Source of the DNA: Marinobacter sediminum
Lineage (GTDB): Bacteria; Pseudomonadota; Gammaproteobacteria; Pseudomonadales; Oleiphilaceae
Assembly: GCF_016820575.1 (NCBI RefSeq)
Contig: NZ_JAEMQH010000001.1
Span: 372,001 to 436,000 of the forward strand
Length of the DNA stretch: 64,000 bases
Reading direction: 5' to 3'
Shown in pieces: positions 30,635-36,241 of this stretch. The position numbers and the translations under genes were made by a program. Position 1 is the stretch's first letter. Each line of letters starts with the position of its first letter. The notes under the pieces are model-generated. The model was given only the letters and a program-made list of their open reading frames with translations, did no database searches and had not been told where the DNA came from.

Positions 30635-31327
30635 TCAGAGTTCATACAGTTTGGTCACGTGCAGGATTGGGCCGGTGGGGGCACCCGTTGGCGAGCCGCC
30701 CACAGGCTCCAGGCTGATCGCCAGGGTACGGCTCTGGGACAGCGCTGTCCGGGCCTCGTCAGTCAACGTGACCTGGTGCACGCCGCCCGCCGGGATGACC
30801 CCGAGCGATAACGGCTGGCCCTGTTCGGGCACTACCCAGAGCTCATAATCCTTGCCGGCATCAGCCGCGCTGGCCGCAATCGAACGCAATTTCAGCAACC
30901 GGTCCGGCCCAGACTCACTGACCAGCCAGAGCGGATCACTGACATTGGCCTGGACAATCGCGCCAGACAGCTGTGGTGCGGGCACCGGCTGCTGCACGAT
31001 CAATACCGCCATCATCACCGCGGCCGCTGTGGCCACCAGACTCCAACTCGGCCATAGCCAGCGCAGCCCTGATCCCGCACGCGCGCCAGACTTGGCCGTG
31101 TCCGGCCAGAGCCGACGTTCAATCGCCTGCCAGACTGATTTGGGTGGCTCCACCGAAGGTACTTCCGCAGACAGCTGGCCCAGTTTCTGTTCCCAGTACC
31201 AGACTTCCTGGCGCACCCGGCCCGATTCCATCATCCAGCGCTCGAACCGACGACGGGCCCGACCATGCAGAGAGCCCAGCACATACTCTGCCGCCAGGCT
31301 CTCAATACGTTCCGTTGTCATCTTCAT
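30635..31327 (-). CDS. RskA-like anti-sigma factor
   Basis: About 230 residues. An N-terminal cytoplasmic helical domain (ESLAAEYVLGSLHGRARRRFERWM; anti-sigma zinc-finger fold but without HxxxCxxC), one membrane helix (about 99-117) and a periplasmic RskA-type domain ending DYELWVVPEQG...LAISLEPVGGSPTGAPTGPIL. It should hold the adjacent ECF sigma at the membrane until an envelope signal releases it. ATG 31327 overlaps the sigma stop (ATGA), the classic coupled arrangement; an ATG four codons upstream is less likely. Confidence 0.92.
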   Translation of the reverse strand: MKMTTERIESLAAEYVLGSLHGRARRRFERWMMESGRVRQEVWYWEQKLGQLSAEVPSVEPPKSVWQAIERRLWPDTAKSGARAGSGLRWLWPSWSLVATAAAVMMAVLIVQQPVPAPQLSGAIVQANVSDPLWLVSESGPDRLLKLRSIAASAADAGKDYELWVVPEQGQPLSLGVIPAGGVHQVTLTDEARTALSQSRTLAISLEPVGGSPTGAPTGPILHVTKLYEL

Positions 31328-31881
31328 TTTTCGAGACACCTCTTGAGGGCAATCAAACCGCGCCGAATCCAGCTCTTCACCGTTCCGATCGGAGAACTCA
31401 ACGCCTGCGACAATTCGTCGTGGGTCAGGCCCTTGTAGTAGGACAGCAAAATGCTGTCCCGTTGCACGTCACTCAGTTCACTCAAACACCCGGTCAACTG
31501 GGTCGCGCCAGCACTGCGGAGCGATTCATCCAGCGGACCGGCACGCTGATCCTCCACATGCTCCAGCTGATCCTCGCCGGCGTGTTGGCGAACCTTTCTG
31601 GCGCGCATTAAATCCAGGGTGCGATAGCGGGCAATCGTCATCATCCACCCCAGGGGCGTGCCGCGATCGCTGTGATACTCACGGGCGTGGTGCCAGATCT
31701 GAATAAAGGTCTCCTGCAAGGCTTCTTCCGCCAGTTCCCGCTGCCCAGCCAGCTTCAGGCAAACGCCGTACATGCGGCCGGAGATCAGCTCATACATCTG
31801 CTGGAACGCACGTCGGTCCTCATGGGACACCGCAATCAAAAGGCGCATCAGGTCATCCTGACTGGCGTCGATTCGAGACAT
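31324..31881 (-). CDS. ECF-type RNA polymerase sigma factor
   Basis: 185 residues with region 2 (EEALQETFIQIWHHAREYH; GWMMTIARYRTLDLMRARK) and region 4 (RDSILLSYYKGLTHDELSQALSSPIGTVKSWIRRGL). It should direct polymerase to envelope-related promoters. GGAG lies 6 nt before the ATG. The next gene is its anti-sigma. A TGCATC-N17-CGTA element upstream on the minus strand, mirrored by a similar one facing the DUF4331 gene, suggests autoregulation plus control of the divergent cluster. Confidence 0.95.
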   Translation of the reverse strand: MSRIDASQDDLMRLLIAVSHEDRRAFQQMYELISGRMYGVCLKLAGQRELAEEALQETFIQIWHHAREYHSDRGTPLGWMMTIARYRTLDLMRARKVRQHAGEDQLEHVEDQRAGPLDESLRSAGATQLTGCLSELSDVQRDSILLSYYKGLTHDELSQALSSPIGTVKSWIRRGLIALKRCLEK

Positions 31882-31908
31882 TTCAGCTCCACTCGTTGTT
31901 GTTCTGGG

Positions 31909-31935
31909 TACGCGCCGACTCTCGGGTGAGATGCA
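31909..31935 (-). promoter_or_regulatory. candidate ECF promoter of the sigma/anti-sigma genes
   Basis: On the minus strand TGCATC (31935-31930), a 17-bp spacer, then CGTA (31912-31909), about 28 bp before the sigma start. The layout and spacing equal those of the divergent plus-strand element at 31969-31995. Confidence 0.6.
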
Positions 31936-31968
31936 GCACAGTGGTCGAATTTATTTTTCAGTCAGGGG

Positions 31969-31995
31969 TGCATCTTTCTCGCAACGCTGCCCGTT
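31969..31995 (+). promoter_or_regulatory. candidate ECF promoter of the DUF4331 cluster
   Basis: TGCATC (31969-31974), a 17-bp spacer, then CGTT (31992-31995), 40 bp before the DUF4331 start. It pairs with the minus-strand element in front of the sigma gene; GCATC- and CGT-type hexamers are typical of ECF promoters. Confidence 0.6.
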
Positions 31996-32035
31996 GCTTC
32001 TGTTGCACAACCCAACAATAGACGAGGAACACGCA

Positions 32036-33637
32036 ATGAACACAGCCACAAAACGCTCGGCCCTCGCAGTCGCCGTAGCGGGAATCTGTTTAGGCGCCAG
32101 CCTGAGCCAGGCGTCCAGTCACCGGGAAGCTCCGTTTATCACCGAAGTTCCGAAAGTAGACGGTACTGATTTTTACATGTTCCGCAGTTATGAGACAGGC
32201 CGAGAGGATTTCGTAACCCTGATCGCCAACTACTTGCCTCTACAGGATGCATACGGCGGTCCGAACTATTTTGATCTCGACGAAAACGCGATTTACGAGA
32301 TTCATATCGATAATGATGGTGATGCAGTAGAAGATCTGACGTTCCAGTTTGACTTCGAGACCGTAAACCAGGATTTCACCCTAAATATCGATGGGACTGA
32401 CGTTGCCATCCCGCTGAAAACCGCAGCAGCTCTTGGGGCAGACGCGAGCGCGGATGCTAATAATCCGGCGCTTCAATCCCGTCAAACCTATTCCATCGAC
32501 GTTATTAGGGGGGACCGTCGTACCGGGACTGTCCAGGCAGTAACGGATATGTCAGGCGGTACCAATTTTAGTAAGCCGGCGGACAACATCGGCTCGAAGA
32601 CCATTTCCAACTATCCCACCTACGCAAAAAGTCACGTCAATGATATCAGTATTCCAGGCTGTGGCATGGGACGTGTCTTTGTCGGACAACGGCAAGAAGC
32701 CTTTGCCGTCAACCTCGGCGAAATTTTCGACCTAGTCAATTTACCACTCGCCGATGTTGCGGGGTTCAACGGCCGGGATCTCGGCCTCAACATCCTAAAC
32801 GATAAAAACGTTACCTCTCTGGCGATCGAAGTACCGACACAGTGTTTGACTTCAGGTAGCGAACCGGTCATCGGTGGCTGGACCTCAGCGAGCCTGCGCC
32901 AAGCCCGGGTTCTCAATCCCGAACCCACCAAGTTCACCGATACGGATATGGGTAAGGGTGCGACTGTCGAGGGTGGAGCTTACACTCAGGTTTCCCGCCT
33001 TGGTTCACCTTTGGTCAATGAAGTAGTTATTGGTCTGCGTGATAAGAACAAGTTCAATGCCAGCGAACCCAAGGACGACGCAAGCAACTTTGCTCCATAT
33101 GTCCTGACTCCAACTTTGCCGGCATTGGTAGAAATTCTATTTGGCGAGCAAGCTGACACGGCCGGTTTCCCGGGAGCAGCCGATGCACCTACTGCATTTC
33201 CACGAGCAGACTTGATCTGGGCATTTCTAAACGGTGTACCAGGCTTGAATCGTCCAAGTGGCAATGTTGTTCTGAGTGAGATGTTGCGACTTAACACAAC
33301 CATCGCTCCTACTGAATTGACAAGCCAGAACGATCTGGGCGTGATTGAAACTGATGGCATGGGCACTATTGTTAATCCTGATTTCGCAGGCTTCCCGAAT
33401 GGAAGGCGCCCAGTTGACGACGTTGTCGATATCGCCTTGCGTGTTGCGATGGGTGTCCTTTATGCAGATCGATTCGACGCCGTACATCCGGACTTCGAAA
33501 CTCTTATGCCCGGTGATGCCACCGCTAAAGACACAGAATTCACGGACGGGGCGGTCACAGCTACTGGCCCATTGCTAACCGAGTTCCCGTATCTGGGCCA
33601 TCCCATTTCCGGTTCACCCAACCCGCAGCGTCCATAG
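32036..33637 (+). CDS. secreted DUF4331 family protein
   Basis: 533 residues. Signal peptide (ALAVAVAGICLGASLSQA) then the DUF4331 opening ASSHREAPFITEVPKVDGTDFYMFRSYE. The family is abundant in environmental bacteria and its biochemical function is unknown. The ATG has GAGGAA 7 nt upstream; an open frame extending to 31931 crosses the promoter and is not coding. The gene is visibly less GC-rich than its neighbours and has looser codon use, which may mean acquisition by transfer. It leads a cluster with a lipoprotein, a TPR protein and a HupE-like protein, opposite the sigma/anti-sigma pair. Confidence 0.9.
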   Translation: MNTATKRSALAVAVAGICLGASLSQASSHREAPFITEVPKVDGTDFYMFRSYETGREDFVTLIANYLPLQDAYGGPNYFDLDENAIYEIHIDNDGDAVEDLTFQFDFETVNQDFTLNIDGTDVAIPLKTAAALGADASADANNPALQSRQTYSIDVIRGDRRTGTVQAVTDMSGGTNFSKPADNIGSKTISNYPTYAKSHVNDISIPGCGMGRVFVGQRQEAFAVNLGEIFDLVNLPLADVAGFNGRDLGLNILNDKNVTSLAIEVPTQCLTSGSEPVIGGWTSASLRQARVLNPEPTKFTDTDMGKGATVEGGAYTQVSRLGSPLVNEVVIGLRDKNKFNASEPKDDASNFAPYVLTPTLPALVEILFGEQADTAGFPGAADAPTAFPRADLIWAFLNGVPGLNRPSGNVVLSEMLRLNTTIAPTELTSQNDLGVIETDGMGTIVNPDFAGFPNGRRPVDDVVDIALRVAMGVLYADRFDAVHPDFETLMPGDATAKDTEFTDGAVTATGPLLTEFPYLGHPISGSPNPQRP

Positions 33638-33658
33638 CCGACAGATAAGGAGACAATC

Positions 33659-33895
33659 ATGAAAAAAGCTCTCACTATCTCAGGCCTTCTAGCGGCAGTA
33701 CTGACGCTTGCGGGCTGCACCGACGGCTCCAGCGTCGGATTTGAGCGACCGAATCCGTCAGTGGATTTCACCACCTTCGTGAAAGCGGAAATCGCCAACA
33801 CCAGCGATACCCGTGCGGCGGTGGAGATCAACGACACGGACTTCAGCTTCAACGATGAAAACAACCCACAGGCCTACGATGACCTGTTCCGTTAA
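33659..33895 (+). CDS. small lipoprotein
   Basis: 78 residues with a clear lipobox LAGC (cleavage before C21), so it is membrane-anchored through lipid. The mature 58 residues are acidic (VEINDTDFSFNDENNPQAYDDLF) with no recognised domain. It begins 21 nt after the DUF4331 gene with GGAG 8-9 nt upstream, and overlaps the next gene by 17 nt. It is presumably a partner of the DUF4331 protein or of the membrane protein downstream; I cannot assign a role. Confidence 0.85.
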   Translation: MKKALTISGLLAAVLTLAGCTDGSSVGFERPNPSVDFTTFVKAEIANTSDTRAAVEINDTDFSFNDENNPQAYDDLFR

Positions 33896-35093
33896 GAAGA
33901 CCCTTCGCCGGAGCGACATCCGTCGTCGTCCGGCGATTTCCTTCCCTGCCCTCCCGGGCAGGGCTTTTTGGCTTGGGCTTACTCTGGCCGGATCACTGCT
34001 GTCGGCATCAGTGGTGACCAGTGCGCCGAGCCCAATCCAAAACGATTTTTCTGACCATGCTGTGTTGGCAACGCTTCCGGACATGTCGCCCGACCTAAGC
34101 TCTACCCCCGACAATGTCGAGGCATTGGCTGATGAGGTACAACAGCTGATCGGTCAGGCCCGATCGACCGGCGACCCCCGATTCCTGGGCTACGCCGAGC
34201 GTCTGCTGCAAGACTGGCCGGAGGCTGGCTTTACGGATCGGCTACGAGTTCTGCGTGCCACCCTGGCCCAGAGCCTGCACCGCTTCGATGCGGCCCGGCA
34301 GGATCTGGAGCGGGTCTTGCAAACCACACAACAGCGCCAGCAGCGGATTCAATCGCGGCTGACCCTGGCCAACCTCGAGCTGGTGCAGGGCAACTATGGC
34401 AAAGCCCGACAGCACTGCCAGGAACTGGCAGGCATCTACCCCGGGCTGATTGCTGCCAGCTGTCTGGCGCAAACCGACGCCAGAACCGGCCAGGCCGACG
34501 CCGCCTACGCGCACTTGCAAGCCCAACAGGCCTCAGCCTCCAATGCCGACCTAACCGGCCAACTCTGGGCCGAAGGCACATTGGGCGATCTTGCAGCACA
34601 GCTGGACCTCGACTCGGCAGCCGTCCACTGGGGTATCGTGCTTCAACAATCACCGGATGATCTCTACACCCGGACACAACTGGCAGATTGGCACCTGCAG
34701 GCAGGCAATCTCCAGGCAACCCTGGCACTCACCGAAGGCTATAAACAGGTCGATGCTCTGGCGGTTATCCGAGCGATTGCCCTGCGCGAAGCGGGGGCCC
34801 CGGCGGCGGAAGCGCTGGCAGACTCCCTGCGGGAACGGTTTGCCGAAGCCCAGTGGCGCGGCACCCTGCTGCATCAGCGGGATTTCGCCCGCTTTCAGCT
34901 CGACATCGAAAACCGTCCGACGCTGGCCCTGAAGCATGCACTGGCCAACTGGGAGACCCAGCGCGAACCCATGGACACCCGCCTGGCCTTGAGAGCTGCA
35001 CACAGCGCTGGAGACCAGCCCGCCCTAGAGCGTTTACACCAATGGCTGGCGCAGTATGATCAGATTGACCAGCGCTACCCGGAGGCACCGTGA
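33879..35093 (+). CDS. TPR-like periplasmic protein
   Basis: 404 residues from ATG 33879. A basic N-terminus with a hydrophobic helix (FWLGLTLAGSLLSASVVTSA) that should act as signal anchor, then helical repeats (RFLGYAERLLQDWPEAG; RFDAARQDLERVLQTT; YGKARQHCQELAGIYPG) consistent with TPRs across most of the protein. It probably acts as a protein-protein scaffold in the periplasm. Its start lies inside the lipoprotein gene and its stop overlaps the HupE-like start by one base, so the three are translationally linked. Confidence 0.82.
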   Translation: MTCSVKKTLRRSDIRRRPAISFPALPGRAFWLGLTLAGSLLSASVVTSAPSPIQNDFSDHAVLATLPDMSPDLSSTPDNVEALADEVQQLIGQARSTGDPRFLGYAERLLQDWPEAGFTDRLRVLRATLAQSLHRFDAARQDLERVLQTTQQRQQRIQSRLTLANLELVQGNYGKARQHCQELAGIYPGLIAASCLAQTDARTGQADAAYAHLQAQQASASNADLTGQLWAEGTLGDLAAQLDLDSAAVHWGIVLQQSPDDLYTRTQLADWHLQAGNLQATLALTEGYKQVDALAVIRAIALREAGAPAAEALADSLRERFAEAQWRGTLLHQRDFARFQLDIENRPTLALKHALANWETQREPMDTRLALRAAHSAGDQPALERLHQWLAQYDQIDQRYPEAP

Positions 35094-36226
35094 TGTTCCG
35101 GCCAATTCCCCTACCACTACTCACCGTATTTCTCTGGCTATTGGCACTGGCCAATCCAGTGCTGGCCCATAAGGCCAGTGACAGTTTCATGTACCTGGAC
35201 ACCGACTCCAGGCAGTTCAGGATCGACGTAGCTCTGCGGGATTTGGCCCTGCTGGTTCCCCTGGATACCAACCGCGACGGCGAGGTGACCGGTGGCGAGT
35301 TGCGTCAGCATCGAGGGGCGATCCTGGCTGCCATCGAGGCAGCCATTACTCTGTCGGCTGACAATACCGCCTGCCAGCTGAGGGGCGAGGAGTCGGGAAT
35401 CAGCCAGCACAGCGATGGCGCCTACGCCGCCACCCGTTACCAGGTGCTCTGCGACGGCGGTCAGGCCCCGGATAGCCTTAACTACCAGCTGCTCTTCGCG
35501 CAGGACAGCCTGCACCGCGGGCTGATTCAGATCAGCGCTGGCAACGAATCGTCACTGGCAGTGGCGGGACCAGACAGCCAAACTGTGGATTTGCGCCCGG
35601 CTGGCCGCGCGGGACTCTGGCACAGCTTCACCACGTTTCTCTGGGAAGGCGTGGTGCACCTGCTGATCGGCCTGGATCACATCCTGTTTTTGTTGGTACT
35701 GGTGCTTCCGGCCAGCCTCTCCCGCAACGATTCAATAACCTCGCCGCAGCGTTGGTTGCCATCCCGAGCGCAGATCATCGAGCTGACCGGCGTGGTCACT
35801 GCCTTTACGGTTGCGCACTCAATCACTTTGGCGCTGGCGGCCCTGAAGATCGTCAGCCTGCCCATTGCCTGGGTGGAAACGGTGATTGCAGCGTCCATTG
35901 TGGTGGCGGCGGTGAACGTGGTCTGGCCAGTGCTCGGGCGCAAAACCTGGCCGCTGGCCTTTGGCTTCGGGCTGATTCACGGCTTCGGCTTTGCCAGCGT
36001 GCTGTCGGACCTGACCTCTGGCACCGCCAATCTGGCCGTCGCCCTGGCAGGGTTCAATGTGGGCGTTGAGCTTGGCCAGCTGGCATTGCTGGCGATCTGC
36101 TTCCCGCTGCTAAACTTACTGGCGCAAGCAACACCGCTCTATCAGCGGGCACTGGTGCCGGTGGTTCTTCTGGGAGTGGTTGGCGTCAGTCTGATGTGGG
36201 TATGGGAACGCACACCGGCCGTTTAG
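35093..36226 (+). CDS. HupE/UreJ_2-like membrane protein with EF-hand-like loop
   Basis: 377 residues. Signal peptide (ending NPVLAHKAS), a soluble extracytoplasmic domain of about 150 residues, then six or so helices with the HupE/UreJ_2 core (HLLIGLDHILFLLVLVLP; TAFTVAHSITLALAAL; GFGLIHGFGFASVL). Related HupE and UreJ proteins carry nickel or cobalt, but this long-domain family is uncharacterised. Residues 58-69 read DTNRDGEVTGGE, a complete 12-residue EF-hand calcium loop, so the soluble domain may bind calcium. GGAGG lies 7 nt before ATG 35093. It is the last gene of the cluster; the stop codon lies in an 11-bp stem. Confidence 0.88.
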   Translation: MFRPIPLPLLTVFLWLLALANPVLAHKASDSFMYLDTDSRQFRIDVALRDLALLVPLDTNRDGEVTGGELRQHRGAILAAIEAAITLSADNTACQLRGEESGISQHSDGAYAATRYQVLCDGGQAPDSLNYQLLFAQDSLHRGLIQISAGNESSLAVAGPDSQTVDLRPAGRAGLWHSFTTFLWEGVVHLLIGLDHILFLLVLVLPASLSRNDSITSPQRWLPSRAQIIELTGVVTAFTVAHSITLALAALKIVSLPIAWVETVIAASIVVAAVNVVWPVLGRKTWPLAFGFGLIHGFGFASVLSDLTSGTANLAVALAGFNVGVELGQLALLAICFPLLNLLAQATPLYQRALVPVVLLGVVGVSLMWVWERTPAV

Positions 36227-36241
36227 GGGCTAAACGGCCGG
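36215..36241. terminator. 11-bp hairpin at the end of the DUF4331 cluster
   Basis: CCGGCCGTTTA / TAAACGGCCGG with a 5-nt loop, overlapping the HupE-like stop codon. It has no T run on either side, so it may be a factor-dependent terminator or mRNA-stabilising hairpin between convergent genes. Confidence 0.5.

Follow-up and report, generated by a model that had tools for sequence, protein, structure and literature searches.

A conserved DUF4331 block of Marinobacter that joins a SigK/RskA-type regulatory pair to an anglerase-type permease, and its possible role in metal handling

Proteins of the type represented by 9GCE, a Cu-bound Ang-1 domain, have been named anglerases. According to the main text of the paper that named them, Ang-1 binds Cu with a dissociation constant (Kd) of 74 nM and Ni with a Kd of 220 nM, and the metal ligands in 9GCE are His1 and Asn41 (PMC12537917, Nat Commun 2025). 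The Ang-1 neighbors named there are DUF4198, indigoidine A-like and PfkB proteins, most neighbors being of unknown function, and the same main text makes no mention of 4331, tetratricopeptide, sigma factor or lipoprotein (PMC12537917); DUF4331 may be among the neighbors it leaves unnamed. Here we describe a Marinobacter locus in which an anglerase-type permease stands together with the secreted protein DUF4331 and an extracytoplasmic function (ECF) sigma factor with its anti-sigma factor. The locus consists of six genes in two divergent units (30635-36226) and lies in a 64,000-nucleotide stretch of the genome of Marinobacter sediminum (the window; contig NZ_JAEMQH010000001.1, positions 372,001 to 436,000).

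The block is genuine: its neighborhood is conserved in other genomes and its genes are inherited together. Metal handling is the best-supported reading of the module because the outer domain of the permease is of the anglerase type and because a NicO transporter replaces the permease in Streptomyces. We consider it somewhat probable that this is an ECF-controlled module with which the cell handles a transition metal at its surface, with Cu or Ni as the likeliest metal and uptake as the likelier direction. The parts of the module are of known kinds except DUF4331. In the open-licence main texts searched, we found no paper on DUF4331 (PF14224) and none describing the DUF4331 module as a combination. 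The features of the locus, in coordinates of the window, are:

30635-31327, minus strand: RskA-type anti-sigma factor (PF10099, 69.4 bits, cut-off 29.4).
31324-31881, minus strand: ECF sigma factor of SigK type (Sigma70_r2 and r4_2; two cysteines as described for SigK).
31909-31935, minus strand: ECF-type promoter motif TGCATCT-N16-CGTA before the sigma gene, suggesting autoregulation.
31969-31995, plus strand: ECF-type promoter motif TGCATCT-N16-CGTT before DUF4331, presumably heading the four-gene unit.
32036-33637, plus strand: DUF4331 secreted protein, signal peptide and mature part (PF14224, 451.9 bits, cut-off 27).
32114-32134, plus strand: SSHREAP, predicted mature N-terminus of DUF4331.
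33659-33895, plus strand: small acidic lipoprotein with lipobox LAGC and a mature part of about 60 residues (from sequence and family conservation).
33879-35093, plus strand: tetratricopeptide repeat (TPR) protein with an N-terminal signal anchor, best start ATG at 33879.
35093-36226, plus strand: anglerase-type HupE_UreJ_2 permease, ATG at 35093 (PF13795, 150.8 bits, cut-off 24.5).
35168-35593, plus strand: outer (periplasmic) Ang-like domain of the permease, from the predicted mature N-terminal His.
35636-36127, plus strand: HupE_UreJ_2 transmembrane domain with HxxxGxDH.
36215-36241, no strand assigned: hairpin with a 12-bp stem that spans the stop codon of HupE; it is terminator-like and has no run of T.

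The minus-strand unit consists of the ECF sigma gene and the RskA-type anti-sigma gene, which share an ATGA overlap. On the plus strand, DUF4331 is followed by the small lipoprotein after a gap of 21 bp, the TPR gene overlaps the lipoprotein gene by 17 bp, and the HupE_UreJ_2 permease gene overlaps the TPR gene by 1 bp. The parts and the tight plus-strand spacing that a first-pass annotation had claimed were all present. In the 3.72-Mb genome (99.93% complete), DUF4331, HupE_UreJ_2 and RskA_C have one match each at E <= 0.001. All three sole matches fall within one 5.6-kb block, which is therefore more than chance. The nearest named relative among the matches listed is M. similis, with 90% identity across the best DUF4331 segment. 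In an M. similis assembly (L110, 7842-12187), the DUF4331, TPR and HupE frames are each in pieces, perhaps through sequencing errors or decay.

The 80 named loci anchored on DUF4331 are the best 80 of 576 confirmed, and the set thus leans to close relatives. Among them, the TPR protein was found in 70, the lipoprotein in 67, HupE in 63 (at a 90-bit threshold and with three short copies, L123, L125 and L129, included), the sigma/RskA pair in 52 and the promoter motif in 56. When genera and labels of metagenome-assembled genomes were merged into 30 groups, the lipoprotein was present in 25, the TPR protein in 24, the permease in 23, the motif in 22 and the sigma/RskA pair in 19. Nine loci with short flanks are counted among the 80 and are absent from the 71 with full flanks. 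Outside Marinobacter there are 56 full-flank loci, and these contained the TPR protein (50), the lipoprotein (45), the permease (43), the motif (39) and the sigma/RskA pair (33). The loci are spread across Gamma- and Betaproteobacteria, including Alcanivorax, Saccharospirillum, Agitococcus, Massilia, Duganella and Peristeroidobacter. A neighborhood confined to the original strain had been named beforehand as grounds for giving up the module; the survey found it conserved across many genera, and the module was not refuted.

Presence and absence across genomes followed the same pattern. DUF4331 occurs in 19 of 37 genomes of the genus (own genome included), and all 19 also encode a full-length permease and RskA. 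The other 18 genomes contained a full-length permease once (G393) and RskA twice (G397 and G400). In an even draw of 369 genomes from the class, 31 have DUF4331 and 25 have full-length HupE, 22 of the latter together with DUF4331 (Fisher p 3e-25). Full-length HupE was defined here as a match of at least 250 bits that starts at profile position 15 or lower, a rule that was set after the list had been seen; it leaves out G286, and G379, which has a membrane-domain-only match, is uncounted. DUF4331 and the permease are on different contigs in some of the class genomes.

The permease carries three of the features by which anglerases are recognized: a predicted N-terminal His, an Ig-like Ang fold in the predicted model and a HupE_UreJ_2 domain. 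The outer domain was modeled by AlphaFold2 with a mean predicted local distance difference test score (pLDDT) of 94.6. Its top match in VIA was 9GCE (Z 11.4, root-mean-square deviation 2.8, 125 residues), followed by the zinc proteins ZrgA and PA4063 (Z 9.3-10.4), with unrelated rows from 6.0. Foldseek placed ZrgA first and 9GCE fourteenth, with a probability of 1.0 throughout. Identity between the outer domain and 9GCE is 9% in the structural alignment, and a sequence comparison of the two domains gave no match. The earlier view that none of the four plus-strand proteins has a known function needs to be narrowed, since the outer domain of the HupE-like protein has a solved Cu-bound structural relative.

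The predicted mature N-terminal His of the permease (H1, with cleavage placed by the signal peptidase rule) is found in 96 of 97 loci, a broken copy (L110) being the one without it; D25 and H116 each occur in 95 of 97. Behind all the misses are L110, the cut copy L118 and a single D-to-E change. The A3 alignment kept 51 of 57 sequences, skipping six HupE loci of unsuitable length together with those lacking the column His; that H1 stands in all 51 of them follows from this selection, and 96 of 97 is the figure to use. HupE/UreJ proteins have the signature HPXXGXDH (PMC7689651). Its H, G, D and H are invariant in all 51 aligned permeases, and the window copy reads HLLIGLDH, without the Pro. Against PF04955, the family of HupE/UreJ nickel/cobalt permeases, the window permease scored 19.7 bits, below the cut-off of 23.

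The Ang-like domain also contains an EF-hand-like loop (D33-E44), and 19 of the 51 members match EF-hand_1 at E up to 1, as might be expected of a calcium-dependent envelope module. These matches are all weak (13.8 bits for the window copy against a cut-off of 25.9), and the loop may be merely structural, so a calcium-dependent module is in our view very improbable. The first-pass annotation had proposed metal or calcium handling; the transition-metal half is the one best supported, by the anglerase-type domain and the exchange for NicO, and the calcium half comes down to this sub-threshold loop.

Full-length anglerase-type permeases were also seen at two loci with no DUF4331 nearby, L225 (8054-9220, 10578-15498) and L226 (4832-5605, 7685-8977). 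Both adjoin genes for non-ribosomal peptide synthesis, with condensation and AMP-binding domains at L225 and a phosphopantetheinyl transferase at L226. They are possible metallophore gene clusters.

A second line of evidence for a metal role comes from plasmids. Among plasmid records, 31 have a DUF4331 match and 19 were read. A plasmid of M. adhaerens HP15 bears both DUF4331 and HupE. In the Streptomyces-type plasmids, DUF4331, a TPR protein and an annotated nickel transporter occur together in all four read, with a sortase between them in one. The transporter that was tested belongs to the NicO nickel/cobalt family (36.9 bits, cut-off 27.7). The finding of another metal transporter in the place of the permease supports a metal role.

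DUF4331 itself has a highly conserved predicted terminus. The His of SSHREAP is present in 121 of 121 pooled loci, of which 119 are distinct as two contigs were included twice (L062/L106 and L080/L144). The residue preceding the SSHREAP-type motif is A or G in all 120 matched, which fits signal peptidase rules, and (S/A)SHREAP was found in 20 of 20 plasmid-encoded copies read. A free NH2-X-X-His terminus is a Cu/Ni site of the amino-terminal Cu and Ni (ATCUN) type, and in Pseudomonadota and Actinomycetota SSHREAP would be a candidate for such a terminus. In two Bacteroidota copies the motif seemingly lies some residues inside and is not terminal, which argues for a role other than ATCUN. A DUF4331 model drew on 50 of the 80 loci plus the window copy. 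The predicted structure has a mean pLDDT of 75.4, and its N-terminal stretch is below 50. Foldseek against the PDB gave no match at E <= 0.001 (best 0.032, probability 0.06). The best VIA score was Z 5.5 and the rows were nearly all antibody Fab chains, which we treated as no match. At that mean pLDDT, and with the domains folded together, the lack of a match is no proof of a new fold.

Many polar residues of DUF4331 are near-invariant, for example FPNGRRPxDDxxD, and these look more like an active site than like a passive binder. DUF4331 might then be an extracytoplasmic metalloenzyme, with the TPR protein and HupE as its maturation or metal-supply partners. HupE/UreJ proteins supply nickel for hydrogenase or urease, and TPR-HupE pairs are also found apart from DUF4331 (L223 and L228), both of which would suit such a supply role. 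However, no twin-arginine motif was evident by eye in the signal peptide of the window DUF4331, so that DUF4331 is unlikely to be loaded with metal while still in the cytosol, and neither Foldseek nor VIA gave a convincing fold match of DUF4331 to an enzyme. We regard metal supply for a secreted enzyme as rather doubtful and keep to metal handling at the surface.

Several loci place DUF4331 beside machinery for surface export. Of the Rhodobacterales plasmids, eight matched and five were read, and in all five DUF4331 has genes of a type II secretion system (T2SS) beside it along with a small lipoprotein-like gene (L177, L178 and L237-L239; the lipoprotein-like gene of L239 is present but unannotated). 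An A24/PulO prepilin peptidase is upstream in four of the five, and the set suggests a secretion system with DUF4331 as its substrate. Plasmids of Streptomyces and of a relative encode a class F sortase near DUF4331 (L244, 192.4 bits, cut-off 166). A C-terminal sorting signal can be seen by eye on the Streptomyces DUF4331, and one of three tested copies has a match to such a signal, below threshold (18.4 versus 29). The Adhaeribacter DUF4331 has its own sorting tail for the type IX secretion system (T9SS) in one of two copies tested (35.5 bits, cut-off 23) and adjoins a TonB-dependent receptor. This company of varied export devices makes a surface location likely, and DUF4331 probably acts at the cell surface. 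For Marinobacter itself, surface display is inferred.

A surface location would also suit an adhesion program of the SigK/RskA kind, in which DUF4331 and the lipoprotein are structural and the metal permease is incidental. Mycobacterial SigK/RskA controls surface antigen genes (PMC7509140), the lipoprotein of Pseudoalteromonas is fused to Big/cadherin-like repeats, and sortase and fasciclin genes lie near DUF4331 in Streptomyces. What makes this explanation unlikely is that HupE or a nickel-type transporter is kept with the TPR protein and DUF4331 in both Pseudomonadota and Actinomycetota.

Pfam scores the repeats of the window TPR protein weakly (best 21.5 bits, cut-off 25.5), and in relatives the repeats are above the cut-off, one of which has TPR_19 at 38.6 bits. 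The family has near-invariant residues, one His (106 of 106) and two Cys (104 of 106 each). One subfamily of TonB-dependent receptor recurs near the module, at 19 loci by clustering (19 of 23 rows kept, four generic ones dropped) and, inside the flanks fetched, at 24 of the 80 named loci by profile, with 39-69% identity between genera. It is present in all seven Acinetobacter loci (L133, L141, L148, L150, L151, L165 and L171), where the order is DUF4331, a short lipoprotein-like gene, the TPR gene and the receptor, then a further conserved gene to which no family was assigned.

The regulatory pair resembles SigK/RskA in that an RskA_C anti-sigma gene adjoins the ECF sigma gene. The start of the anti-sigma gene is preferably ATG 31327, whose Met is kept in 78 of 79 aligned sequences, and GTG 31339 is also possible. 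For the sigma factor, the best NCBIfam subfamily is SigK (PRK09646), with a score below its cut-off. Two SigK-like cysteines, equated with C133 and C183 of SigK by position and without an alignment to SigK, are each kept in 79 of 82 aligned sequences. The copper-responsive SigAb of Acinetobacter was considered and ruled out, as its anti-sigma genes are AabA/AabB and it is a different system (PMC12153292).

Counts of short-word pairs upstream of DUF4331 gave the motif TG(C/A)ATC(C/T)-N16-(C)CGT(A/T), and an expression derived from it hits 82 of 117 such regions, namely 62 of the 78 that have RskA nearby and 20 of the 39 that do not, as against a mean of 0.15 and a maximum of 1 in 20 trials with letter-shuffled regions. 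With a flank-free expression and duplicate contigs removed, the count is 83 of 115. On the reverse strand there are 25 matches, part of them being the divergent sigma promoter, and 30 of 78 loci have the motif around the start of sigma. Since the expression was fitted to the very upstream regions in which it was counted, a scan of the own genome is the cleaner test. There the strict pattern occurs five times in 3.72 Mb, and a control pattern twice. Two of the five fall in the 154-bp spacer between sigma and DUF4331; the others are two inside long open frames (L186 and L188) and one before a TolC-like OEP gene (L187). In 61 genomes of the genus the pattern exceeds the control in most, with matches in every genome whether DUF4331 is present or not. 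From those listed, seven were picked by eye: one precedes DUF4331 (L251), one a TolC-like gene (L249, G396) and one what is probably the beginning of an open frame of 785 residues (L253), and four are inside open frames (L250, L252, L254 and L255), one of them on the opposite strand. We read the regulon as mainly local, with the reservation that the strict pattern would pass over sites that deviate from it. The conserved neighborhood, the near block-wise presence or absence and the shared motif together agree with the first-pass idea of a signal-controlled module of secreted, anchoring and membrane parts, as far as sequence can tell.

The motif before the TolC-like outer membrane gene is at G000:C1:1076120-1076146 in the own genome (L187) and recurs in a near relative (L249). 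The TolC-like gene is a possible further target of the sigma factor. A large divergent frame beside the motif at L187 resembles a LapA-type adhesin by eye.

The proposed mechanism is as follows. The SigK/RskA-type pair would sense an envelope or metal signal, and the freed sigma factor would transcribe its own gene and the divergent DUF4331-lipoprotein-TPR-HupE operon from the sites seen in the spacer. DUF4331 would be exported to a position at or outside the outer membrane, where the small lipoprotein probably tethers it. The TPR protein might join the surface parts to the permease, which is the weakest step. By the example of the solved structural relative, the outer domain of the permease would capture the metal through its N-terminal His, and the captured metal would be exchanged with the HupE channel.

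Several observations weigh against this reading. By the rule given above, nine of the 31 DUF4331-positive class genomes are without full-length HupE. The TPR protein and HupE are absent at Saccharospirillum, Noviherbaspirillum and a few other DUF4331 loci, and the seven Acinetobacter loci lack HupE and the RskA pair in the fetched flanks and keep DUF4331, the TPR protein and the TonB-dependent receptor. In the Rhodobacterales loci, no TPR protein or HupE is annotated beside DUF4331, and no transporter adjoins the Adhaeribacter DUF4331-TPR genes. A search of the own genome with one of the neighboring TonB-dependent receptors gave a best match of 25% identity only. Asn41 of 9GCE is poorly conserved by the paper's own account (PMC12537917), and the identity of the metal is therefore not transferable from 9GCE. 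Lastly, the NCBIfam model nearest to the Streptomyces transporter, below its cut-off, is for nickel/cobalt efflux, so the direction could be export. The permease might then remove excess metal, with DUF4331 and the lipoprotein sequestering it outside, and ECF control suits such a stress response. On the other side, those HupE/UreJ relatives for which data exist have been described as importers (PMC7689651, PMC4284471), and the authors of the anglerase paper propose that metal is captured and taken up (PMC12537917); detoxification is thus not a likely explanation.

With surface metal handling, the anglerase permeases would gain conserved partners and a regulator, and DUF4331 would gain a testable role at the cell surface. 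If this reading is correct, a protein-based route of metal handling would be added across phyla, and it would become testable what a SigK/RskA-type switch responds to outside mycobacteria. A wider proposal, which we put forward tentatively and hold to be less likely than not, is that DUF4331 (the 'SHREAP' protein) represents a novel kind of protein metal trap, displayed on the surface in at least three phyla and mounted through a lipoprotein tether, T2SS, T9SS or sortase F. In two phyla a TPR adaptor would hand Cu or Ni on from it to permeases of the anglerase or NicO type and so into the cell, and in Proteobacteria it would be under a dedicated SigK/RskA switch.

Among known systems, anglerases (Ang-1 or Ang-2 with HupE/UreJ-2) are most like the window permease, sharing the two-part build, the predicted N-terminal His, the predicted fold and the membrane domain. 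Unlike 9GCE, the window subfamily has the near-invariant D25 and H116 and the EF-hand-like loop. ZrgA (8F1B) and PA4063 (7AMX) share the fold of the outer domain (Z 10.4 and 9.4); they are separate proteins, not known to be fused to a permease as the outer domain is in the window. FecI/FecR surface signaling likewise places an ECF sigma factor and a membrane anti-sigma factor beside metal-related envelope genes, but the block has RskA in place of FecR and no TonB-dependent receptor among its six genes. In copper uptake by YcnJ or CopC-CopD (on CopC, PMC10952591), an outer domain with an N-terminal His serves a membrane permease. The domain and permease families differ from those of the window. 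The neighbors of the window pair are DUF4331, the lipoprotein, the TPR protein and the permease, and not MPT70/MPT83 as in the mpt83-sigK-rskA cassette. MPT70 and MPT83 have a fasciclin domain. Similar to SigK/RskA (ECF18/ECF19) as described for that cassette, the RskA_C gene overlaps the gene of an ECF sigma factor with two cysteines, and a surface protein is encoded next to the pair (PMC7509140).

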